A stretch of DNA of 64,000 nt from Halichondria panicea (taxonomy: Eukaryota; Porifera; Demospongiae; Suberitida; Halichondriidae), in NCBI RefSeq assembly GCF_963675165.1, contig NC_087391.1, forward strand, positions 5,488,126-5,552,125, written 5' to 3'. Positions 28,760 to 63,070 of the stretch are shown piece after piece. The first letter of the stretch is position 1, and every line of letters starts with the position of its first letter. The notes under the pieces are model-generated. The model was given only the letters and a program-made list of their open reading frames with translations. It was not told where the DNA came from and did no database searches. The translations under genes and the position numbers were made by a program.

Positions 28760-29636
28760 TCTGAGTGTTGTGTAAAGTGTTTTGTAATTTTTCTAATAAT
28801 TATGCACCGTATGTTGTTCTTATTACACAATGGCCTCATTTGAACAAATCTCTCTAATATAATTTGTATACACCGGCCGTGCACATGTTACAGGTGGAAG
28901 ACTTTTTGTGTGTATTATATTATACACTGTTTTAACTGTGACACTCTCAATAAGTAATTATAGGGATAATAAAGAATCATGAATTGCAGGATAAATGGTT
29001 GTGAAAAAAAAAATCTCATTTGGGAGTATGATAATATATATGTGAACGAGAGAAAGAGAATAAATGAAACAACAGTTTGGACAGGTTAAATAATAAAGTT
29101 CATGTTTTCAGTTCTAGTTTGCTGAGCTCCTCCCTGCTAAGTCCAGCTGCAGGTCATCACTGAACAATCTCTCCTCACACACTCTGTGCTTCACTGTGCT
29201 TCTACAATTAGACACAAGGTAGGCTAAGATCCCAGCCAGTAGCTGTATACAGCCAGACTCACCTGTGCAGGGGATACAAGCGGTGTACAAGGGGGATTCC
29301 CCAACATGTCTAGAATACATCATCACCTAACAGTTTAGTCATGCGGAAGCCATACCTAAAAGTGGCTGATAAGTGTTTGTAGTGAGATCACACGGCTGCA
29401 CCGCTAGCTAAAATATTTGATCATGTGGTCTAGCCGCTAAGAAAACCACTTATCCAATGCAAACAACCACTTAGACAGCTGCACAAGTAGCTCATGTGTA
29501 ATTTGCCAGACGCTACCTCCGGGATGAAACGATTGGCTTGTGAGATTACTAACAAATAGGCTCTAGCAAATACAACCCTTTTCACCTCACTTGAAATGCA
29601 AATTTTATTAGAAAGTCAACTATAGGCTCTGTACAC

Positions 29637-30046
29637 TAGCTACAGTGTACACAGTGGGATCACACTATAGGCTCTGTACACTAGCTACAGTGTACACAGT
29701 GGGAACACACTATAGGCTCTGTACGCTAGCTACAGTGTGCACAGTGGGACCACACTATAGGCTCTGTACACTAGCTACAGTGTACACAGTGGGAACACAC
29801 TATAGGCTCTGTACACTAGCTACAGTGTACACAGTGGGACAACACTGTAGGCTCTGTACCGTGGCACTAGCTACAGTGTACACAGTGGGAACACACTATA
29901 GGCTCTGTACACTAGCTACAGTGTACACAGTGGGACCACACTATAGGCTCTGTACACTAGCTACAGTGTACACAGTGGGACCACACTATAGGCTCTGTAC
30001 ACTAGCTACAGTGTACACAGTGGTACCACACTACTGTAGGCTTTGT
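29637..30046. repeat. 45-bp intronic minisatellite, about 9 units
   Basis: Tandem units begin CTAGCTACAGTGTACACAGT, continue GGGACCACACTATAGGCTCT and end GTACA. They lie just downstream (in the minus sense) of the Tudor exon in TDRD9 copy C. Equivalent arrays have 2 units at 36131 and 19 units at 47012. Open frames in it are artefacts of a 45-base period. Confidence 0.93.
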
Positions 30047-31166
30047 ACACACTTGAGGTAAACTAAGATAGCGTATTCAGCTTTTTGCCTCACCTGAATC
30101 ATGAGGTATTTGCTCATTGTGAGTTGCTTGAACCTGTCGTTTGCCTCAGCTGACCACTTGCCATCAGATGAGCTCTGAATGGTGGGTTTGACGGACGTGA
30201 GGAAACACTCGATGGCCTGCATATCGAGCTCTGTGTCACTGGAGGAGAGCTCACACAGTACACCAGTATTCACCATCTCCACGTTACCGTAGTCCACAAA
30301 TACCACATGGGCATACACCTGTGAGGGTGTGTGTGGGTGGTGTGAGGAGTGGATATATAGACATGTGAGTGTGTGGGTGTAAGGGGTGGTGTGAGGAGTG
30401 GGTATAGACATTTGAGGGTGTGGGTGGTGTGACGTTGTGAGGGTGTGGGTGGTACGTACCTCATTTGTCTCCTCGACGACCTCCATGCCAACGACCTTTG
30501 CCCGATAAAACAGCCCGTCCTCAGAGAAAGGGGCAAGACAGAACATGCCCTCCATCTTGGCTGGGGGACAAAGGAGCGGCTTCAGACTACGAGTGTTGAT
30601 ACTGTCCAGTAGCCGTCTCATGTTCGTCGTGGCAACCTGGTCGGCCAACTGGGCCCAGAAGTGGCCAGCATCAATGTACTGCAAGATAGGTCAGTATACA
30701 ACATGGCTTTAAAGTAACAAGGTCAAACAAGAACAAGAGCAATCAAATTACAATAATCAGTCAAAATAGGTTTTCTTATACACTTAATGCACATACCGAA
30801 TAATTTGCTGGTGAAAAAACTTTGTTAATTATAGACAAATCAGCAGAAAAGTTGACATTTTTCGATCGAACTATTGCGTTCTGGCAAGGATCGTGTTGTG
30901 TCATTACTTGTTGCAAAGTGATCAACGCTTGCTGAGTTCGCATATGTTTGATGCTCACAAAACATTCTAGTAATACGGTATCACAATTTTTTGCTATTAC
31001 AAACAGGGAAATCTTGTTATTGTCAAGTGTATAATTATTATACAAACACGGAATTCTTCATTTATTGTCTAGTGACGTGGATATTATACAAACACGAAAA
31101 TCTATCCGTTTCTATCACCTCTACCGTGTCATGTTATGTGTGGGTGTTTCAAGTGCAAACTAAGTC

Positions 31167-31256: not shown

Positions 31257-32706
31257 ATGTCTTCTGTACTCCTAATATTTTGCTGCCTCCTTGGTCTGGG
31301 GTCAGCCTGGAACCAACCGAGCACCTGCTATGTTAGGAGCCAATCCAGTGGAACCGAGACACAGCTAACAAAGATTAGTGAATCACTCGAATATCTATCA
31401 GAGCTGAAACACATTCGTGAAACACTGGAAACTATTGCCGACAGATTGCTGGGTAAGTACGTAACAATACTCACAGTCAAAAGTGACTCAAGTGTGTATA
31501 TTGCTATCCATGCATGTAACTACAATAATCTGTCTCTTAACTGTTGCAGATGCTGAAGGAAATGCAAGTGCACCAGTGTCAACTACCAGCATGCCAACAA
31601 CAGCCACATCAACCATGGAAGCAACAACTGCCACTACCAGTGAACCAACAGCAACCACATCAACCATGGAAGCAACAACTGCCACTACCAGTGAACCAAC
31701 AGCAACCACATCAACCATCGAAGCAACAACTGCCACTACCAGTGAACCAACAGCAGCCACATCAACCATGGAAGCAACAACTGCCACTACCAGTGAACCA
31801 ACAGCAACCACATCAACCATCGAAGCAACAACTGCCACTACCAGTGAACCAACAGCAGCCACATCAACCATTGAAGCAACAACTGCCACTACCAGTGAAC
31901 CAACAGCAACCACATTAACCATGGAAGCAACAACTGCCACTACCAGTGAACCAACAGCAGCCACATCAACCATGGAAGCAACAACTGCCACTACCAGTGA
32001 ACCAACAGCAATGACCACAGACCCACCAACTGCTTCTGACACTTGCGGTGGACCAGGATGGACAAGAGTGGCCTACATTAACATGACTGACCCCAACCAA
32101 CAATGCCCTCAAGGACTTCAACTGACAGACTATTCGATAAGATCATGTGGTCGTCCACCAACGTCTAGTGTTGGTGTTTGCTCATCTGTTACGTTTCCAG
32201 TGGGTTATGTCGAATACAGGCAGGTGTGTGGGAGAGCAGTAGGTTATCGATTTGGAGTAAACTACGCATTCTTTGGATACTATTTTCAAGGTAGGAATAC
32301 TATCGATGTTCACTATGTCGATGGACTCAGTGTCACGCATGGGCAATCTCCACGCACACATATCTGGACGTTTGTCAGTGGTCTGTACAATGGAACCAAT
32401 GGTGATCATAGCCCTCAAACGCGCTGTCCTTGTGATGAGGGGAACGGTTCTCCTCCATTCGTGGGAAATGACTACTTTTGTGATAGTGTGGCCACAGATA
32501 ATACCGGTTTTCGTTTCTATCCCGACAATGCGCTGTGGGATGGTCAGTTTAGCCTCAACACATGTTACAATTACAATAATCCTCCGTGGTTTACGAAAAC
32601 TCTATCAACTCCAACTACTGATGACATTGAGCTACGAATGTGCTTCCTTAATCACAACACATTTTCTAACATGGGACTTCAGCTCTTGGAACTATACATC
32701 AGTTGA
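31257..32706 (+). CDS. Nested secreted mucin-like protein, copy C, 8 repeat units
   Basis: The two exons 31257-31452 and 31550-32706 join to 450 residues. Parts are the signal peptide MSSVLLIFCCLLGLGSA, the helix SLEYLSELKHIRETLETIAD, eight 17-residue repeats of the type TMEATTATTSEPTAATS (31612-32010), and the Cys-rich domain from CGGPGWTRVAYINMTDP to the stop. The Thr/Ser content of the repeats (9 of 17) suggests dense O-glycosylation and an extended stalk. There is no membrane anchor, so it should be secreted. The gene lies antisense within the intron between the VFVEFERP and Tudor exons of TDRD9 copy C. The repeats carry only TAATS and TATTS endings (one TATTL). The frame is intact, so this is the best candidate for a functional short-stalk member. 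Confidence 0.85.
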
Positions 32707-37558: not shown

Positions 37559-40500
37559 ATGTCTTCTGTACTCCTAATATTTTGCTGCCTCCTTGGTCTG
37601 GGGTCAGCCTGGAACCAACCGAGCACCTGCTATGTTAGGAGCCAATGCTCCAGTGGAACCGAGACACAGCTAACAAAGATTAGTGAATCACTCGAATATC
37701 TATCAGAGCTGAAACACATTCGTGAAGCACTGGAAACTATTGCCGACAGATTGCTGGGTAAGTACGTAACAATACTCACAGTCAAAAGTGACTCAAGTGT
37801 GTATATTGCTATCCATGCATGTAACTACAATAATCTGTCTCTTAACTGTTGCAGATGATGAAGGAAATGCAAGTGCACCAGTATCAACTACCAGTGAACC
37901 AACAGCAGCCACATCAACCATGGAAGCAACAACTGCCACTACCAGTGAACCAACAGCAACCACATCAACCACGGAAGCAACAACTGCCACTACCAGTGAA
38001 CCAACAGCAGCCACATCAACCATTGAAGCAACAACTGCCACTACCAGTGAACCAACAGCAGCCACATCAGCCATGGAAGCAACAACTGCCACTACCAGTG
38101 AACCAACAGCAGCCACATCAACCACGGAAGCAACAACTGCCACTACCAGTGAACCAACAGCAGCCACATCAACCATGGAAGCAACAACTGCCACTACCAG
38201 TGAACCAACAGCAGCCACATCAACCATGGAAGCAACAACTGCCACTACCAGTGAACCAACAGCAACCACATCAACCATGGAAGCAACAACTACCACTACC
38301 AGTGAACCAACAGCAGCCACATCAACCACGGAAGCAACAACTGCCACTACCAGTGAACCAACAGCAGCCACATCAACCACGGAAGCAACAACTGCCACTA
38401 CCAGTGAACCAACAGCAACCACATCAACCATGGAAGCAACAACTGCCACTACCAGTGAACCAACAACACCCACATCAACCACGGAAGCAACAACTGCCAC
38501 TACCAGTGAACCAACAGCAGCCACATCAACCATGGAAGCAACAACTGCCACTACCAGTGAACCAACAACACCCACATCAACCATTGAAGCAACAACTACC
38601 ACTACCAGTGAACCAACAACACCCACATCAACCATGGAAGCAACAACTGCCACTACCAGTGAACCAACAGCAGCCACATCAACCATGGAAGCAACAACTG
38701 CCACTACCAGTGAACCAACAGCAACCACATCAACCATGGAAGCAACAACTACCACTACCAGTGAACCAACAACACCCACATCAACCACGGAAGCAACAAC
38801 TGCCACTACCAGTGAACCAACAGCAACCACATCAACCATGGAAGCAACAACTGCCACTACCAGTGAACCAACAGCAGCCACATCAACCATGGAAGCAACA
38901 ACTGCCACTACCAGTGAACCAACAACACCCACATCAACCACGGAAGCAACAACTACCACTACCAGTGAACCAACAGCAGCCACATCAACCATGGAAGCAA
39001 CAACTGCCACTACCAGTGAACCAACAGCAACCACATCAACCATGGAAGCAACAACTGCCACTACCAGTGAACCAACAACACCCACATCAACCATGGAAGC
39101 AACAACTGCCACTACCAGTGAACCAACAGCAGCCACATCAACCATGGAAGCAACAACTGCCACTACCAGTGAACCAACAACACCCACATCAACCATGGAA
39201 GCAACAACTGCCACTACCAGTGAACCAACAGCAGCCACATCAACCATGGAAGCAACAACTGCCACTACCAGTGAACCAACAACACCCACATCAACCACGG
39301 AAGCAACAACTACCACTACCAGTGAACCAACAGCAGCCACATCAACCATGGAAGCAACAACTGCCACTACCAGTGAACCAACAGCAACCACATCAACCAT
39401 GGAAGCAACAACTGCCACTACCAGTGAACCAACAACACCCACATCAACCATGGAAGCAACAACTGCCACTACCAGTGAACCAACAGCAGCCACATCAACC
39501 ATGGAAGCAACAACTGCCACTACCAGTGAACCAACAGCAGCCACATCAACCATGGAAGCAACAACTGCCACTACCAGTGAACCAACAACACCCACATCAA
39601 CCATGGAAGCAACAACTGCCACTACCAGTGAACCAACAACACCCACATCAACCATGGAAGCAACAACTGCCACTACCAGTGAACCAACAACACCCACATC
39701 AACCATGGAAGCAACAACTACCACTACCAGTGAACCAACAGCAGCCACATCAACCATGGAAGCAACAACTGCCACTACCAGTGAACCAACAGCAGCCACA
39801 TCAACCATGGAAGCAACAACTGCCACTACCAGTGAACCAACAACACCCACATCAACCATTGAAGCAACAACTACCACTACCAGTGAACCAACAACACCCA
39901 CATCAACCATGGAAGCAACAACTGCCACTACCAGTGAACCAACAGCAACCACATCAACCATGGAAGCAACAACTGCCACTACCAGTGAACCAACAACACC
40001 CACATCAACCATGGAAGCAACAACTGCCACTACCAGTGAACCAACAGCAGCCACATCAACCATGGAAGCAACAACTGCCACTACCAGTGAACCAACAACA
40101 CCCACATCAACCATGGAAGCAACAACTGCCACTACCAGTGAACCAACAGCAGCCACATCAACCATGGAAGCAACAACTGCCACTACCAGTGAACCAACAA
40201 CACCCACATCAACCATGGAAGCAACAACTACCACTACCAGTGAACCAACAGCAGCCACATCAACCATGGAAGCAACAACTGCCACTACCAGTGAACCAAC
40301 AACACCCACATCAACCATGGAAGCAACAACTACCACTACCAGTGAACCAACAGCAGCCACATCAACCATGGAAGCAACAACTGCCACTACCAGTGAACCA
40401 ACAACACCCACATCAACCATGGAAGCAACAACTACCACTACCAGTGAACCAACAACACCCACATCAACCATGGAAGCAACAACTGCCACTACCAGTGAAC

Positions 40501-42188
40501 CAACAGCAACCACATCAACCATGGAAGCAACAACTGCCACTACCAGTGAACCAACAGCAACCACATCAACCATGGAAGCAACAACTGCCACTACCAGTGA
40601 ACCAACAGCAACCACATCAACCATGGAAGCAACAACTGCCACTACCAGTGAACCAACAACACCCACATCAACCATGGAAGCAACAACTGCCACTACTAGT
40701 GAACCAACAGCAGCCACATCAACCATGGAAGCAACAACTGCCACTACCAGTGAACCAACAACACCCACATCAACCATGGAAGCAACAACTGCCACTACTA
40801 GTGAACCAACAGCAGCCACATCAACCATGGAAGCAACAACTGCCACTACCAGTGAACCAACAGCAGCCACATCAACCATGGAAGCAACAACTGCCACTAC
40901 CAGTGAACCAACAGCAGCCACATCAACCACGGAAGCAACAACTGCCACTACCAGTGAACCAACAGCAACCACATCAACCATGGAAGCAACAACTGCCACT
41001 ACTAGTGAACCAACAGCAACCACATCAACCATGGAAGCAACAACTGCCACTACCAGTGAACCAACAGCAACCACATCAACCATGGAAGCAACAACTGCCA
41101 CTACTAGTGAACCAACAGCAGCCACATCAACCATGGAAGCAACAACTGCCACTACCAGTGAACCAACAACACCCACATCAACCATTGAAGCAACAACTGC
41201 CACTACCAGTGAACCAACAGCAGCCACATCAACCATGGAAGCAACAACTGCCACTACTAGTGAACCAACAGCAACCACATCAACCATGGAAGCAACAACT
41301 GCCACTACCAGTGAACCAACAGCAACCACATCAACCATGGAAGCAACAACTGCCACTACCAGTGAACCAACAGCAGCCACATCAACCACGGAAGCAACAA
41401 CTGCCACTACCAGTGAACCAACAGCAGCCACATCAACCATTGAAGCAACAACTGCCACTACCAGTGAACCAACAGCAATGACCACAGACCCACCAACTGA
41501 TTCTGACACTTGCGGTGGACCAGGATGGACGAGAGTGGCCTACATTAACATGACCGACCCCAACCAACAATGCCCTCAAGGACTTCAACTGACAGACTAT
41601 TCAAGAAAATCATGTGGTCGAACACCAACGTTTGACGGTAGTGTTTGCTCATCTGTCATGTTTCCAGTGAGTGATGTCCAATACAGGCAGGTGTGTGGGA
41701 GAGCAATAGGTTATCGGTTTGGAAAACCCTTAGCATTCTTAGAATACCACATGTATGGTAGGAATATCGATGTTGCATATGTCGATGGACTCAGTGTCAC
41801 GCATGGGCAATCTCCACGCACACATATCTGGACGTTTGCCAGTGGTCTGTTCAATGGAACCAGTGGTGACATTTTCCCTAACTATCGCTGTCCTTGTGAT
41901 GAGGGAAATACATATGGTTCTCCTCCATTTGTGGGAAATGACTACTTTTGTGATAGTGTGGCCACACTTACTAACTATGGTGTAAACGGGTTTCGTTTCT
42001 ATCCCGACAATGCGCTGTGGGATGGTCAGTCGAGCCTCAACACATGTTACAATAACAATAATCCTCCGTGGTTTACGAAAACTCTATCAACTCCAACTAC
42101 TGATGACATTGAGCTACGAATGTGTTTCAATGATGACAGCACACATTCTAACATGGGACTTCAGCTCTTGGAACTATACGTCAGTTGA
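37559..42188 (+). CDS. Nested secreted mucin-like protein, copy B, 70 repeat units
   Basis: The two exons 37559-37757 and 37855-42188 join to 1510 residues. The signal peptide, helical segment and Cys-rich C-terminal domain are nearly the same as in the short copies. Between them are 70 tandem 17-residue units, TMEATTATTSEPTAATS and variants, from 37917 to about 41477. Ends of units are TAATS, TATTS or TTPTS; the TTPTS form is absent from the 8-unit copies. Every unit is exactly 51 bases, so no stop or frameshift occurs. The predicted product is a very long, Thr-rich, probably O-glycosylated stalk with a globular Cys-rich head. The gene lies antisense in the 36819-42618 intron of TDRD9 copy B. 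Its upstream region lacks the TATAAAA of the other copies because about 11 bases are missing near 37470, so transcription is uncertain. Confidence 0.85.
37917..41477 (+). repeat. 51-bp coding minisatellite, 70 units
   Basis: The first unit starts ACCATGGAAGCAACAACTGC at 37917 and the last at 41436. The difference, 3519, is exactly 69 x 51, so no unit has gained or lost a base. Variation is by substitution only (ATG/ACG/ATT at codon 2; GCC/ACC at codon 7; GCAGCC/GCAACC/ACACCC near the end). The last unit diverges after 42 bases, into ATGACCACAGAC. Confidence 0.97.
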
Positions 42189-44805: not shown

Positions 44806-47800
44806 CATAATTACCAGCAGGGACTCACTCTTTAATGAGGTTCCTTGCTTTCGTCTGGACCTCCTGCAACATGGTGTCATTCAACTCTCCAATAACATCC
44901 TCGTCCCCTACAGCGAGGTTGATCACCAGACGAAGGTTGTTCACCTGTGGAGTGGGCGTGTGTGTGTGTGTGTGGTACCAGTAAAGGTAGTGTATACATG
45001 TAGCTGCATGGCGAAATGCATATTGCAAACTAGTTTTCGTTTCCAGGAGCTATAGTGTTATAACAGACAAAGTGGCCAAAAACAAGGCAGTACCATTTTG
45101 AGGTCATCCTGTGAGATGAGGGTGTCAAAGGTCAACTCCATATCGTGCTCACTGTAGATGCTCTCATCTGTGTCCACATCGAAACCCAACCCACAAATGG
45201 CCCCAGTGTACTGACGCTTCAACTCATCAGCTCTGGAGAACAAAGCACGTGGAATATTACACCTGTTATAGTTGGAACATCTTTCAACAGCCATAAACTT
45301 GAATTCCGTTGATATAATCTAAACAATTTTATGATTTTCTGAAAGCTTGGGAAGAGACCTTTCAAATGGTACCATCAATAGTCATATTTGTAAGATCAGA
45401 AAATTTGCTGATTTCGGCCAAATACCATGGATTATAGCCCATGGTCCAAAGGCGAAAAATACCAAATTAGGGTCCCAAATAAATTTTGGATTGAAACACA
45501 TCATATGAAAGGTCTCTTTCTAAGCTTTCAGAAAATTTTGAAATTGGATCATCAGAACAAAAGTTAATGGCTATTGAAAGATGTTCAACTAGACCTGCAT
45601 ACACGCACGGCTTATAATAGCTACTAGCTAGCTACTAATACGTACATGTAGTACGCTCACCTCATCTCCACACAGGGTGCAAACAAAATGGCGACCAAGT
45701 GGAGGAGTGCAGGGATGTTGGGCATGAGGGTGGTGTGTCTAGCGATGCAGGTATTGCCTGAGGGGTTTAACGCCACATAGCCTGCCACCATCAGTCTGTC
45801 ACGACGGTCCTGTGGTTCACTGTTGACCACGATACAATTGACTGAGTCTCGCTCGATGCGAGCCTGTCGGTATCCCCCGGCAATGGTCATCTGGTGGAAG
45901 GTCACCTCGTACATACTGTCAGGACCTCTCAGCTCAAACTGAAGAAGAAAAAACCTGTTTATAAACTTTGCTTGCTTAGACATAAACCAAAATTATAAAT
46001 CTTGTAGGGATACTAAGTGCCTGAGGGATACTAGTCCCCAGAGGCACTTCTCCCTTGTATATCTAATCATCAACTAGTGTCTAACGTTTGTTTGTTCAAT
46101 GTCCCCACCTTCCTGCCTCTGGGGTACTTCTTGGTCCTGTCCTCCTCCAGCCAGGGGATGGTCTTGGTGGTGCTGGACTCGTACCTCCCTCCTCTACCCC
46201 CCACACTGGTCGAGGCCTCGGACGCCTGAGCTGCTAGAGTCTGAACGTGGGCAAACTGCACCGGGGGGTGGGGCGTTAGCATAATCAAGGCAATCATAAT
46301 AATTATACACAATCATAACTTGGAATACCTACATGTACTAATCTGTACAATAATTATTGATCAATTTTTGGTAGCTTCTTTGAGAGACCATAAGAAAAAG
46401 ACCAGCTACCAATACAGCTTCTACAATTAGACACAAGGTAGGCTAAAATCACAGCCAGACTCACCTTCGAGGGGTAGGGCTCCTCACAGTGGACAGCATG
46501 ACCTTCTTTCACAAGCACCTCGTTGATGAAGATGTCCTCCTGGCTTGTCGTATCGTACAAGTCGACACGTAGGGAATTCCCCACATGAGAGTACACCTGT
46601 GCAGGGATACAAGCGTTGTACAAGGGGGATTCCCCAACATGTCTAGAATAAATCATCACCTAACAGTTTAGTCATACGGAAGCCATACCTAAAAAGTGGC
46701 CAATTCACCGTACAGAGTCGTCCACACATAGTGGTGCTGTAAGTGGCTGATAAGTGTTTGTAGTAAGCTACTGTGAGATCACACATGCACACTTAGCTAA
46801 AATATTTGACAAATCTAATTAGCTGCTAGTAAACCACTTATCCAATGCAAACAGTCATTTAGACAGCTGCACAAGTAGCTCATGTGTAATTTGCCAGACG
46901 TTACCTCTGGGATGAAACGACTACCTTGCGAGACTACTAGCGGTTGTAAATTAATATGCTGTAATACAACCATTTTCACTTCACTTGAAATGCAAACTTT
47001 AAAGTCAACCACTAGCTACAGTGTACACAGTGGGACCACACTATAGGCTCTGTACACTAGCTACATGTACAGTGTACACAGTGGGACCACACTATAGGCT
47101 CTGTACACTAGCTAGCTACAGTGTACACAGTGGGACCACACTATAGGCTCTGTACACTAGCTACAGTGCACACAGTGGGACCACACTATAGGCTCTGTAC
47201 ACTAGCTACAGTGCACACAGTGGGGCCACACTATAGGCTCTGTATACTAGCTACAGTGTACACAGTGGGGACCACAGTATAGGCTCTGTACACTAGCTAC
47301 AGTGTACACAGTGGGACCACACTATAGGCTCTGTACACTAGCTACAGTGTACACAGTGGGGAACACAGTATAGGCTCTGTACACTAGCTACAGTGTACAC
47401 AGTGGGGCTACACTATAGGCTCTGTACACTAGCTACAGTGTACACAGTGGGGCCACACTATAGGTTCTGTACACTAGCTACAGTGCACACAGTGAGACCA
47501 CACTATATATAGGCTGTGTACACTAGCTACAGTGCACACAGTGGGACCACACTATAGGCTCTGTACACTAGCTACAGTGTGCACAGTGGGACCACACTAT
47601 AGGCTCTGTACACTAGCTACAGTGTACACAGTGGGACCACACTATAAGCTCTGTACACTAGCTACAGTGTACACAGTGGGACCACACTATAGGCTCTGTA
47701 CACTAGCTACAGTGTACACAGTGGGACCACACTATAGGCTCTGTACACTAGCTACAGTGTGCACAGTGGGACCACACTATAGGCTCTGTACACTAGCTAC

Positions 47801-50800
47801 AGTGTACACAGTGGGACCACACTATAGGCTCTGTATACTAGCTACAGTGTGCACAGTGGGACCACACTGTAAGCTCTGTACACACTTGAGGTAAACTAGG
47901 ATAGCGTATTCAGCTTTTTGCCTCACCTGAATCATGAGGTATTTGCTCATTGTGAGTTGCTTGAACCTGTCGTTTGCCTCAGCTGACCACTTGCCATCAG
48001 ATGAGCTCTGAATGGTGGGTTTGACGGACGTGAGGAAACACTCGATGGCCTGCATATCGAGCTCTGTGTCACTGGAGGAGAGCTCACACAGTACACCAGT
48101 ATTCACCATCTCCACGTTACCGTAGTCCACAAATACCACATGGGCATACACCTGTGAGGGTGTGTGGGTGGTGTGAGGTTGTGAGAGTGTGGGTGGTGTG
48201 AGGTTGTGAGGGTGTGTACCTCATTTGTCTCCTCGACGACCTCCATGCCAACGACCTTTGCCCGATAAAACAGCCCGTCCTCAGAGAAAGGGGCAAGACA
48301 GAACATGCCCTCCATCTTGGCTGGGGGACAAAGGAGTGGCTTCAGACTACGAGTGTTGATACTGTCCAATAGCCGTCTCATGTTCGTCGTGGCAACCTGG
48401 TCAGCCAACTGGGCCCAGAAGTGGCCAGCATCAATGTACTGCAGGATAGGTCAGTATGCGCAATGTGGCTTTAATTAAAGTAACAAGGTCAAACAAGAAT
48501 ATGAGCAATAAAGTTACAATAATCATCGTAAGAGTCATTGTCTGTTTTCTTACACTTAATGAACATACCGAATAATTAATTTTGTTGGTGAAAAAACTTT
48601 GCAAATGTTAGCGGATTATATTTTGCGTAGTGATGCTCACAAAACATTCTAGTAATACAATAATTATTATAAGACTTATTTTCGCAAAAATTTCATCAAA
48701 CACGGAAATCTCAATTATAGTTGTACGGTCTATTACCTCTATCGTGTCATGTTATGTGTGGGTGTTTCAAGTGTGCTAATTAAGTCTATAAAACGTGCAG
48801 AGCTACAGCAAACCGTATCCGACTGATTATCATCACACGTACGACACTGTCACTATTCCCGTGGAGACTATACTAACTATGTCTTCTGTACTCATAATAT
48901 TTTGCTGCCTCCTTGGTCTGGGGTCAGCCTGGAACCAACCGAGCACCTGCTATGTTAGGAGCCAATGCTCCAGTGGAACTGAGACACACCTAACAAAGAT
49001 CAGTGAATCATTGGAACATATTCGTGAAGCACTGGAAACTATTGCCGACAGATTGCTGGGTAAGTACGTAACAATACTCACAGTCAAAAGTGACTCAAGT
49101 GTGTATATTGCTATCCATGCATGTAACTACAATAATCTGTCTCTTAACTGTTGCAGATGATGAAGGAAATGAAAGTGCACCAGTGTCAACTACCAGCATG
49201 CCAACAGGAGCCACATCAACCATGGAAGCAACAACTGCCACTACCAGTGAACCAACAGCAGCCACATCAACCATGGAAGCAACAACTGCCACTACCAGTG
49301 AACCAACAGCAACCACATCAACCATGGAAGCAACAACTGCCACTACCAGTGATCCAACAGCAACCACATCAACCATGGAAGCAACAACTACCACTACCAG
49401 TGAACCAACAGCAGCCACATCAACCATGGAAGCAACAACTGCCACTACCAGTGAACCAACAGCAGCCACATCAACCATGGAAGCAACAACTGCCACTACC
49501 AGTGAACCAACAGCAGCCACATCAACCATGGAAGCAAAAACTGCCACTACCAGTGAACCAACAGCAGCCACATCAACCATGGAAGCAACAACTGCCACTA
49601 CCAGTGAACCAACAGCAATGACCACAGACCCACCAACTGCTTCTGACACTTGCGGTGGACCAGGATGGACGAGAGTGGCCTACATTAACATGACCGACCC
49701 CAACCAACAATGCCCTCAAGGACTTCAACTGACAGACTATTCGATAAGATCATGTGGTCGTGCATCAACGTCTAGTGGTGGTGTTTGCTCATCTGTCATG
49801 TTTCCAGTGGATGGTGTCCAATACAGGCAGGTGTGTGGGAGAGCAATAGGTTATCGGTAGGGAACCAACTACGCATTCTTTGGATACTACCATGGAGGTA
49901 GGAATACTATCAATGTTGGATATGTCGATGGACTCAGTGTCACGCATGGGCAATCTCCACGCACACATATCTGGACATTTGCCAGTGGTCTGTTCAATGG
50001 AACCGGTAACGGTTATTCTCACCTGCGCTGTCCTTGTGATGAGGGGAACACTTATGGTTCTCCTTCTCCTCCATTTGTGGGAAATGACTACTTTTGTGAT
50101 AGTGTGGCCACACCTAATAACTGGAATGTAAACCCGAATCGTTTCTATCCCGACAATGCGCTGTGGGATGGTCAGTCCAGCCTCAACACATGTTACAATA
50201 ACAATAATCCTCCGTGGTTTACGAAAACTCTATCAACTCCAACTACTGATGACATTGAGCTACGAATGTGCTTCCATAATCCCAACATACATTCTAACAT
50301 TGGACTTCAGCTCTTGGAACTATACATCAGTTGAAGTGATTGTGAATGAATATTTGCTGAGAGCTTTTAGTTTATTAACAAACTCTCTTAGTTTAGCTGA
50401 GTGAGAACATGAACACTACAAGTGAACTCTACCTAGCATTCTCGTATTGTAGACTATAGCTATAAAAGTTTGTTGCATGTTTGAAAAAGATCAAAGAAGC
50501 CACAGCGCAACTATTTTCATTTAGATCACAGTCGTATGATGTACTATTACTGCACTGGAATTGTAAAGCAGTGCAATAATAGCGTATCACATCCGGACCA
50601 GTACTACATGCGGCTTGTTTTCGAATAAAGGCCGCGGCTAAAATGTTCAGTCCTCTCTGTCCTTGTGATGAGGGGAACACTTTTGGTTCTCCTCCATTGA
50701 CTACTTTTGTGATAGTGTGTAATTACATACCTCAGTGATGACAATCTGCTTAGTGCCACTATCAGGGAGCTTCATCTCCTTCAGTGCCCCGGCTCTAATT

Positions 50801-59362: not shown

Positions 59363-59411
59363 TAGTCTCATGAATCAGCAGCACCTTTGGTGCGGCTGAT
59401 TCATGAGACTA
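59363..59411. repeat. Perfect inverted repeat
   Basis: The 16-base arms AGTCTCATGAATCAGC (59364-59379) and GCTGATTCATGAGACT (59395-59410), plus a T-A pair outside and a GCACC/GGTGC inner stem, form one hairpin with a three-base loop. It sits between SYVN1 and the selenoprotein gene. It could be a MITE remnant or an RNA hairpin in the SYVN1 3' region. Confidence 0.85.
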
Positions 59412-59521: not shown

Positions 59522-60511
59522 ATGGACCCAAACTCCAAAGAAAAGAAGCTGGTTTTTGCTACCCAACAGCTCACTGCTAAACTGACCACAGTGGTGACAA
59601 GCTGTGCCAAGGAGATAGAAGAAGACGGTGCACTGCAGTTCAGCAAGAACTCTGGACGACGTGACAAGGGGATCATGAAAGCAACCCTACCCATCATGCT
59701 CGCTTATTGTGACTGGCTTATGGCTGTTGGTGTCAAAACTAGACAGCAAATGAAAGATATCTGGGAGAAATTTGTCGACAACAAGGACGTGCGGGACTGT
59801 GTGGAAGAATTGAAGCAAGCAGAAGAAGCTTTCAACTCGTTGCTGGAGGGGGTGAATGAAGTTGTGCAAAAGGACGAAGAAATTACGGTATGCATGAGCA
59901 TTTTGATTGTTTTGTATTTTACTTTTTTCCTTGTGCAGCTAAAGTCCTTAGAGACAGTTACGAGGGGAGGAGTCCTACCGACGACATTACCACTGCAGGA
60001 TCTGGATACTGGAGCTCAAATCATTACGGGAGATATTTTGAGAGATCCTTACACTCTGTTCATTTTGAACCGGAATCTTTCCTGAGGTCCATGCAACAAA
60101 CACATTCAGGCTGTTCAAGCAGCATTGGGAGATTTCGAAAAACTTGGTTGTCGAGTAGTTTTGGTATTTAGTGGATCGAGGAAAGACACATTATTGTGGG
60201 AGGAACAGAATGAACGAATCAAAATGGCCAAATTTGTAGACGCTAATTGGTTGCTGTATCGCAAACTCAATCTCCGACGGCATGTGGACATACTCACGTC
60301 ACACAATATGTGCAAATATGGAGAGCAAATGGTTGGTGGTGGCGAGTCACCTTCGAGCTCCGTACAATATCCAGATGATGACCTTTGGATCATGGGTGGA
60401 GATTTTATAGTCACACAAGACGGCCTTCTGGTGTATGCATATCATCAGCGAACCTTCTACCAAAGGCCAGCTGTAGAAGAGCTGCTCGATGCTTTGAAAG
60501 CTCACAATTAA
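59522..60511 (+). CDS. Peroxiredoxin-like (AhpC/TSA, SelU-type) selenoprotein with Sec at in-frame TGA
   Basis: Two exons, 59522-59887 and 59939-60511, flank a 51-base intron. They join to 312 residues if the in-frame TGA at 60083-60085 is read as selenocysteine (residue 171). The thioredoxin-like core reads YTLFILNRNLS-Sec-GPC, then ALGDFEKLGCRVVLVFSGSR, and later LWIMGGDFIVTQDGLLVYAY. This places Sec exactly where AhpC/TSA-type proteins have the first Cys of their CxxC motif. Conservation of the fold continues well past the TGA. A hairpin with SECIS features lies at 60554-60622 in the 3' untranslated region. The N-terminal 120 residues are helical and of unknown function. The nearest known families are PRXL2/SelU and SelL (UxxC or UxxU motifs); which one is unclear. 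The role is likely thiol redox. The alternative is a pseudogene with a nonsense mutation, which the SECIS makes unlikely. Confidence 0.85.
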
Positions 60512-60553
60512 GCCAGAAACATTGAACATTGAACTATGTTCGTGTGTGTGTTT

Positions 60554-60622
60554 GTCTCATTTTTGATGTCAGTTGCTTAAATCTCCTAGGAGCTAGTTGC
60601 TGACTGAAATTGTTTATGAGAT
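60554..60622 (+). promoter_or_regulatory. SECIS element (selenocysteine insertion signal)
   Basis: Lower helix GTCTCAT (60554-60560) pairs with ATGAGAT (60616-60622). Internal-loop bases follow, then the quartet UGAU (60564-60567) opposite UGAA (60605-60608), which fits UGAN/KGAW. Upper stem GTCAGTTGCT (60568-60577) pairs with AGTTGCTGAC (60595-60604) with one mismatch. AAA (60579-60581) lies on the 5' side of the apical loop, 11 bases after the quartet, and CTCC/GGAG (60583-60592) forms an extra mini-stem, as in form 2 SECIS. The base before UGA is U rather than the usual A or G. Confidence 0.8.
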
Positions 60623-61164: not shown

Positions 61165-62878
61165 TCAGATGACATTAGTAGCACTGGAAGTGCTGTCTGA
61201 GCTACCATAATAGAAATTCTTAAGTCCCTTGTAGTAGCCACGATCTTGTACAGTGTTCAAGTGACTATCAAACTGAAATATAAGTTTAGCCCATCGAGGG
61301 GCGAACAAAACCATGGCACCTACGTTAGCTAATAAATCAAATACCAGCAAAAATGCAGTAACTACACGATGCTTATAAAGGGGATTGATAAATGCGATTA
61401 TGAAGACCACTAAAGGAAGATAACAAAACCATATGATATACATAAACGATAAAGAGAAATAGAGCTTCAACTTCTCAGGTCGATTTTCAACGAGATAAAT
61501 CTGTCTCATTTCATAGAGAATGTAGGCCAGGAGTGCAAGTCTATAGGCAAGGTAGAGAGCCCCCGGCCAGCTCTGGAAGGTGTGGTTAGTCCAAATAGAC
61601 AGGGGAAACACTTGATTCTGAACCTGGGCCGGGGAAAAAAGAGACACAATGTGAACACCTATATGCACAAGACTGTGTAGTAGTGCGAGCAGTAGTGTAA
61701 AATTATGTTTAAAATGGCACAAAATAGCGGAAAAATGCATCACTTATAACAAATACACACAATCTTCCATACAACAATACAACACACAGTACATCTGTAT
61801 ATACACTCACAACAGCCCAAATGAAGTACACAGAGAAGAAGACCACATACGCTCCCCATACTCCAAACGTGAGTTTCTTCCAGCGTAGAGCACTGTCTGT
61901 CACCATCCAGCCCTTACCGATGAGCAATAGCACAAGAATCAGCAGCCAATCGGAAAACTGGTTGAACACCTCTCCCAAGAACAAGCACCATACCGCTCCA
62001 AACCCATCACCAGCGAACACAGCATAATGGATCAGTTCAAATATCACATGAAGGAACTCCAGCACCAGAGATGCAGTGAATATAGCTGGTAATAGATGCA
62101 TCCTTCGAAAACCTATCGCGGACGTTTTGCACCATTTCCCGCAGAGTCCAAAGTGCATTGCGAGATGTATGGAGAGCAGGGCCAGGTATACAACGGAGAA
62201 CAATAACTGCATGAGTAGTACTCCCTCCAGCTCAAGCGAAAATTGGTAGACGAATGGATTCAAGTGGGTGTTGTTTTCCGGATCTGAGTTGACAAGACTT
62301 ATATCGTACCAGAGAGTACTATTTTCCGTTTCACTCCATTTACAGCTGGATGAGTAGTTGCGATCACAAGCCAACATGAAGAGATAGTAAAATTCAGTTT
62401 TTGGAGATTCTTTTACGCGAAAAGTGAAGTCATTTCCAGGAACTACACGAATGGAGTTGGGTTGGTTACAAGATAATGGGTCTTGATTGTTGCATGGAAG
62501 CCTTCTGATGTAGTCCTTCATTCCACTGGGGCAGGTATGGTCGTCCACTGAAATACTCTCGTTGAGAACCGACTCAAACACTGCGTTGCACGACATTACG
62601 CCATGCTTAGCTACGAGACTGTCAGAAACATCCTGAGGTACAAGCACTAACAACAATCCAGATCGTATCGTGACAAAGAGATCTTCCGTTTTAACGGACC
62701 CAAATACATACAAATTTTGACCAGAAGCAACTCCAAACTTGGCTAAATAGTACAGGGGGGCATTGTTGTTCCTGTCATCTGTAGGCAAAGGAGAATGTTT
62801 TGTAACACCACTGACTCTTGTCCCAGCAGACAGCTTGCACACTAGCAGGAGGAGCAGGGCAACTGGCAAACCACCCAT
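61165..62878 (-). CDS. GPR180/TMEM145-like seven-transmembrane protein
   Basis: Two exons, 61811-62878 and 61165-61623, join in phase to 508 residues. The start chosen (62878) gives a clean signal peptide MGGLPVALLLLLVCKLSA; an ATG 35 codons upstream (62983) is in frame but would bury it. An extracellular domain of about 220 residues has Cys pairs and several NxS/T sites. Seven hydrophobic segments follow, beginning with LEGVLLMQLLFSVVYLALLS. They contain FNQFSDWLLILVLLLIGKGW, a motif of the GpcrRhopsn4 family (GPR180, TMEM145). Such proteins are thought to act in trafficking or signalling at membranes rather than as classical G-protein receptors. The C-terminus is Ser/Thr-rich. It is divergently arranged with the next gene, 192 bases apart. 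Confidence 0.85.
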
Positions 62879-63070
62879 GGCATGCCGGTTAGCTAGCTGT
62901 ACACTTCTAAACCTTATCTTGTGAATCTCTAGTTTGGTTTCATACCATGTGACTGTTGACGAGCCCCTCCCCCTCAAAGCCATTAGACTAAAAATCTAGC
63001 TAGCTGCAGGAAACAGAAGGATGTTTATATACTTTTGATGATCTCTAACTGTATCTAGCCGAGCTGCAAG
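62879..63070. promoter_or_regulatory. Divergent promoter region
   Basis: It lies between the start codons of the GPR180-like gene (minus) and the next receptor-like gene (plus), 192 bases apart. No TATA box is obvious at the expected place. Confidence 0.35.

Follow-up and report, generated by a model that had tools for sequence, protein, structure and literature searches.

SelL is reportedly a Sec-x-x-Sec protein, as Shchedrina et al. are said to have described it in 2007, and a diselenide has been proposed for it. Another group, the 'AphC.like' selenoproteins, was reported in three sponges and called sponge-specific by Jiang, Ni and Liu in 2012 (PMC3473315), with three genes in Amphimedon (Aq.AphC.like_a, b and c), two in Oscarella and, in Suberites, one incomplete gene. 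In the available part of that paper, SelL and AphC.like are listed separately in Amphimedon, and AphC.like is not among the families named as multi-Sec (SelL, SelW and SelP). Related work repeats the 'AphC-like selenoprotein in sponge' (PMC3828610) and describes an algal UxxC protein, 'AhpC_b', with prokaryotic Cys homologues (PMC7539508), as well as Prx-like proteins of bacteria that have UxxC or UxxU motifs (PMC2398784, PMC13188914); the excerpts consulted of PMC9925728 and PMC2874816 contain no further family member. In the openly accessible literature that we searched, we found no other description of the sponge AphC.like proteins and no UxxU form.

We analysed a window, by which we mean the whole 64-kb stretch of DNA, and searched the genome assembly that contains it, 131.5 Mb in 39 contigs and eukaryotic to judge from its introns and animal-like genes. 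At 59522-60511 (+) the window carries a two-exon gene with a 312-residue product. Judging by its sequence, this product is very probably a selenoprotein, most likely of the AphC.like type, in which UGA171 would be decoded by way of a SECIS element in the 3' UTR, and a peroxiredoxin-like oxidoreductase of thioredoxin fold in which Sec171 would be paired with Cys174. Coding exon 1 (59522..59887, +) encodes residues 1-122, a predicted helical N-terminal region across which the full-length paralogues align. Coding exon 2 (59939..60511, +) encodes residues 123-312 and the TAA stop, and contains an AhpC/TSA-like thioredoxin-fold domain recognized by Pfam and NCBIfam models. Between them we read from the sequence a 51-bp GT-AG intron of phase 0 (59888..59938, +), whose length is divisible by 3; the 17 residues that it would encode if unspliced are absent from both paralogues in the alignment. 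The in-frame TGA (60083-60085, +) is codon 188 in the unspliced frame and codon 171 after intron removal, so that the position and codon number given in the preliminary description are right once the intron is taken out. The predicted Sec171 lies in the context LNRNLS-U-GPC-NKHI, forming the motif Sec-Gly-Pro-Cys (UGPC), and is followed by the presumed resolving residue Cys174, encoded by TGC (60092..60094, +). Downstream of the TGA the frame stays open for 141 codons, up to the TAA at 60509-60511, in agreement with the roughly 140 residues of family pattern first noticed there. Standard annotation would end the gene at the TGA and so miss the redox half of its product.

The surroundings of the gene show several features of their own. 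An inverted repeat (59364-59410; TCATGAATCAGC ... GCTGATTCATGA) precedes the start codon by roughly 110-160 bp, and its 12-base arm has exact copies nowhere else in the window. Downstream, on the opposite strand, is a gene for a GPR180/TMEM145-type membrane protein (61709-62983, -; Pfam 2.2e-12). A 51-bp tandem repeat occurs at 37887-41477 (70 copies), 31594-32011 and 49201-49617; the first array lies inside a 1472-codon open frame (37770-42185) that by eye is mucin-like and Thr/Ser-rich (TTSEPTAATSTMEATTA), and a shorter open frame (31465-32703) is similar to it. Another tandem family is built of 45-bp units and forms two arrays (29619-30050 and 47010-47883). Elsewhere in the assembly, the matched part of a cathepsin-L-like frame (L151, C9:2570213-2570782) starts with SSWAF, which we take to be a silicatein-like change, and four relatives have SCWAF, SCWSF or GCWAF. 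Of COX1 only a short fragment was found, on C1, and no mitochondrial contig was seen among the assembly contigs.

The AhpC/TSA-like domain proposed at the outset was recovered by Pfam, the product matching both AhpC-TSA_2 (6.2e-7; 30.2 bits against a cut-off of 27) and AhpC-TSA (9e-6, above its cut-off). A motif search of the whole protein for P...[TS]..[CU] found no PxxxTxxC, and we accordingly rejected a classical peroxiredoxin; in the absence of this motif a disulfide/selenosulfide oxidoreductase, or else a peroxidase of atypical kind, is the more probable reading. The N-terminus had been called unfamiliar and, indeed, no Pfam family scored above cut-off in residues 1-122, but both paralogues share this region and a comparable sponge family had already been published, to judge from the available text (PMC3473315). 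Single-sequence AlphaFold2 predicted four helices of low confidence for exon 1 (pLDDT 57) and, run without an alignment on exon 2, reached a pLDDT of 37; both structure models were too poor for use. Against the PDB, a single-sequence search returned two DHFR chains only (best E 0.17), and a profile search gave weak matches, best 0.0046 for ResA and then peroxidoxins, which would fit a thioredoxin fold and nothing beyond it.

We then considered the 3' UTR. The hairpin noticed earlier was found independently by the Rfam covariance model SECIS_1, which aligned over its full length (model 1-64) with 60554-60622 (+) at 31.4 bits (E 8.6e-4 in 1801 bases); since the gathering score is 35 bits, a gathering-level Rfam scan of the window is silent. 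Its parts are the core TTGA (60563-60566), starting 51 nt past the stop, the apical AAA (60579-60581) and the 3' TGAA (60605-60608), and the folding energy of the hairpin is -18.8 kcal/mol (z -2.77), equalled by 3 of 200 shuffles. The core, UUGA, is unusual: eukaryotic SECIS cores are usually AUGA, with GUGA in many sponge SECIS, according to the accessible part of PMC3473315. In the whole genome the SECIS_1 search, in which 133 of 1782 candidates were scored, gave three matches at E<=10 (33.6, 31.4 and 21.6 bits), none above the gathering score, and the element studied here is the second of them (E 0.0147). The top match (L002, C4:7065201-7065267, -) lies behind a frame with a TGA in VNVASKUG that we named by eye as glutathione-peroxidase-like, and may serve as a useful positive control for the search. 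As a further control, SECIS_1 also matched below cut-off in 4 of 14 prokaryote genomes at E<=10. When both strands of the 64 kb were scanned for a strict SECIS core, with thresholds chosen post hoc, the candidates being already known, and retaining the elements of all three genes of the family, a single one of 1704 overlapping 150-nt windows was positive, and it held the 60554-60622 element.

A search of the genome with the exon-2 protein (E<=10) found three places: the gene itself, L006 on C16 (C16:5265981-5266529, -; 36% identity) and L007 on C9 (C9:5963006-5963539, -; 35%). These three genes, hereafter the trio, are on three different contigs, and the two paralogues look single-exon. Their full-length proteins, 314 and 318 residues long, respectively, have the N-terminal region in common with the window protein, to which they are 31-36% identical, and TGAs are the sole interruptions of their frames. 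Both have a TGA at the aligned codon 171 and a second one at the position of Cys174 (URPU in L006, USPU in L007), and their own stops are TAA and TAG. The paralogues thus appear, from their reading frames, to carry two selenocysteines each, as Sec-x-x-Sec. Rfam SECIS_1 was not found in L006 or L007. Our own core scan placed ATGA..AAT..AGAT 51 nt past the stop of L006 and GTGA..AAT..TGAT 48 nt past that of L007; a first, loose version of the scan listed further sites, one of which, in L006, had better energy.

These alignments bear on the possibility of a pseudogene or an assembly error, in which the TGA would be a true stop or a misread TGC or TGT and the frame behind it would be dead. Both paralogues retain the TGA at the same codon in spite of their divergence, the 141 codons past it are not only open but conserved, and a SECIS element is in place, which together leave this explanation a close to negligible probability. 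Splicing around the TGA is likewise rejected, as the paralogues align through it ungapped. Reading of UGA171 as selenocysteine through the 3' UTR SECIS is strongly supported by these comparisons, and the selenoprotein with a UxxC redox motif put forward at the beginning is borne out by the TGA in 2 of 2 paralogues and by Sec or Cys in 32 of 32 bacterial homologues (see below).

The genome also contains candidates for the decoding machinery. The tRNA-Sec model gave nine matches at E<=10, four of them above cut-off. The best of them, on C17 (73.4 bits), is the only one that ARAGORN identified as tRNA-SeC (anticodon TCA), and seven other loci were tRNA-Ser according to the same program; in the controls the model matched in 14 of 14 genomes, above cut-off in five. 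A cluster of tRNA-Ser genes (L009-L012 and L015, C8:5704687-5706891), with anticodons TGA and CGA, also matches the tRNA-Sec model. SepSecS was matched by six stretches on C2, all above cut-off and one with an internal TGA (3 of 14 controls match). Two further TGA-bearing frames, on C3 (L026/L025, C3:7040899-7041606, -; TGA in UVMC) and on C2 (L027/L032, C2:7716065-7716502, -; TGA in UPLC), are presumably SelU-like, a name given by eye; Pfam AhpC-TSA_2 matches them as well. Our core scan found a weak SECIS-like core downstream of the UVMC frame and none near the UPLC frame, so that their reading as selenocysteine frames is only likely.

The affiliation of the protein was assessed in alignments and domain scores in which U was always entered as C. 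The NCBIfam model NF040769, 'SelL-related redox protein', has a cut-off of 120 bits and gave 75.3 bits (4.2e-21) for the window protein, 102.3 for the L006 domain (below cut-off) and 120.3 for that of L007 (just above it). In a six-frame search of the genome the values were 67.5, 86.6 and 104.4, respectively, none above cut-off. A SelU3-type protein (18% identity) scored 72.3, so NF040769 by itself cannot tell the window protein apart from SelU. This near-equality, together with the UxxC motif and the match to AhpC-TSA_2, is what speaks for membership in the SelU (PRXL2) family, the resemblance remarked on in the preliminary description; the motif and the domain match stand, but the profile rankings and the SelU-like TGA frames on C3 and C2, which are separate genes, go against the assignment. 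Over 33 rows comprising the bacterial relatives and one SelU3-type sequence, a profile of the trio domains ranked nine bacterial UxPC rows first (8.6e-22 to 4.5e-14). With default filters 31 of the 33 rows were listed, the SelU3-type row and L125 being missed; with filters off the SelU3-type row came 32nd (4e-4) and L125 last (0.003). The window protein alone placed three UxPC rows first, followed by other bacterial rows intermixed with UxPC, and the SelU3-type row 31st (E 0.24); for each trio member that row ranked 31st to 33rd. We therefore regard membership in SelU as highly unlikely. Bacterial SelL-related UxPC proteins appear closer to the protein in sequence, and SelU is the weaker filing.

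The bacterial homologues were collected with NF040769 from two sets of genomes. In the first, 40 of the 80 bacterial genomes that a probe had reached, 13 matched at 1e-10 and two were above cut-off; in the second, 395 genomes of one phylum, 19 matched at 1e-25 and nine were above cut-off. The sets share one locus, leaving 32 different loci, all of which were aligned. The Sec column is occupied by Sec (TGA) in 20 of them and by Cys in 12, and three columns further on are 27 Cys, four Ala and one Ser. Since that column is part of the model used to collect the loci, the Sec/Cys conservation is partly built in; the use of TGA rather than another codon in 20 rows is not built in by the choice of model. 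Three other TGAs lie inside the matched stretches, all at the terminal end. None of the 32 rows has Sec at the second position, and the UxxU motif of the paralogues is thus not mirrored in the bacterial sample. A contig search with the three-row trio alignment returned 149 stretches, none of which was confirmed, and tblastn of plasmids with the L007 domain gave no match at 1e-3.

An unrooted tree was built from 34 of 36 rows, without L125 and L128, which have fewer than 150 residues; in it the trio forms one clade (100/99). It sides with the UxPC rows and two Cys groups, apart from the SelU3-type row (92/96, unstarred), which is a long branch and the lone SelU-like sequence in the tree. Because the Cys groups and the UxPC rows meet in an open fork (81/87) on the trio's side, a sister relation of UxPC to the trio is not established. 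Profile and tree may be taken as a lead for a bacterial origin, short of a demonstration. We can only offer as a conjecture, and a rather doubtful one, that the trio represents a sponge-lineage family in which a single genome toggles between Sec-x-x-Cys and Sec-x-x-Sec forms, and which would derive from bacterial SelL-related UxPC selenoproteins, Sec having been kept through a transfer in which the in-gene bacterial SECIS had to give way to a eukaryotic one in the 3' UTR.

Alternatively, the gene could be a UxxC form of SelL proper, which in aquatic animals is a diselenide protein with UxxU. Both paralogues are UxxU, NF040769 scores rise from the window protein to L006 and to L007, which passes the cut-off, and an exon-by-exon search of the genome with this model listed no further SelL-like gene. 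Against this, the window protein itself is UxxC and below the NF040769 cut-off, even the best six-frame match in the genome (the L007 gene) stays under that cut-off, and Amphimedon has SelL and AphC.like listed apart in the accessible text of PMC3473315. On balance we consider this assignment unlikely, and retain the AphC.like-type selenoprotein as our reading.

For such a protein the fold family, together with the UxxC motif, suggests a working cycle. Once UGA171 is decoded by way of the 3' UTR SECIS, Sec171 would attack the substrate, Cys174 would resolve the intermediate with formation of a selenenylsulfide, and a reductase of the thioredoxin type would restore the enzyme. In the paralogues, since a second Sec replaces Cys174, a diselenide would form instead. 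The helical N-terminus may, at a guess, serve dimerisation or partner binding. The UGPC, URPU and USPU proteins would offer a natural comparison of selenenylsulfide and diselenide centres that share a fold and occur in the same animal.

Compared with the known systems, the window protein shares with SelU/PRXL2 the UxxC motif in an AhpC-TSA_2 domain, whereas the SelU-like frames of the genome are genes separate from the trio. SelL, compared here by motif, has Sec-x-x-Sec like the paralogues, whereas in the window protein the second of these positions is a Cys. The bacterial UxPC SelL-related proteins resemble the trio in the Sec position, the xPC motif, a His three residues past the Cys and a domain of about 165 residues; in contrast, they are 19-29% identical to it, the open frames of eight matches have 181-239 codons versus the 312-318 residues of the trio, and they lack a second-position Sec. 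With AphC.like, as described in the accessible part of PMC3473315, the window gene has in common a Sec in a Trx-like/AhpC-like domain, three genes per genome (in Amphimedon), the two coding exons of two of the Amphimedon genes and a variant SECIS core (GUGA in Amphimedon a, b and c). The Amphimedon genes differ in arrangement, a and b being in tandem and c having five exons, whereas the trio is dispersed and two of its members look single-exon; that text also mentions no Sec-x-x-Sec form, such as L006 and L007 have. Because such a family has been known since 2012, the window gene, matched by published description, is most likely a member of the sponge AphC.like family. What goes beyond the earlier reports is a further AphC.like-type member, its Sec-x-x-Sec paralogues and the bacterial link, which as a lead would connect a family described as sponge-specific with the bacterial SelL-related selenoproteins.
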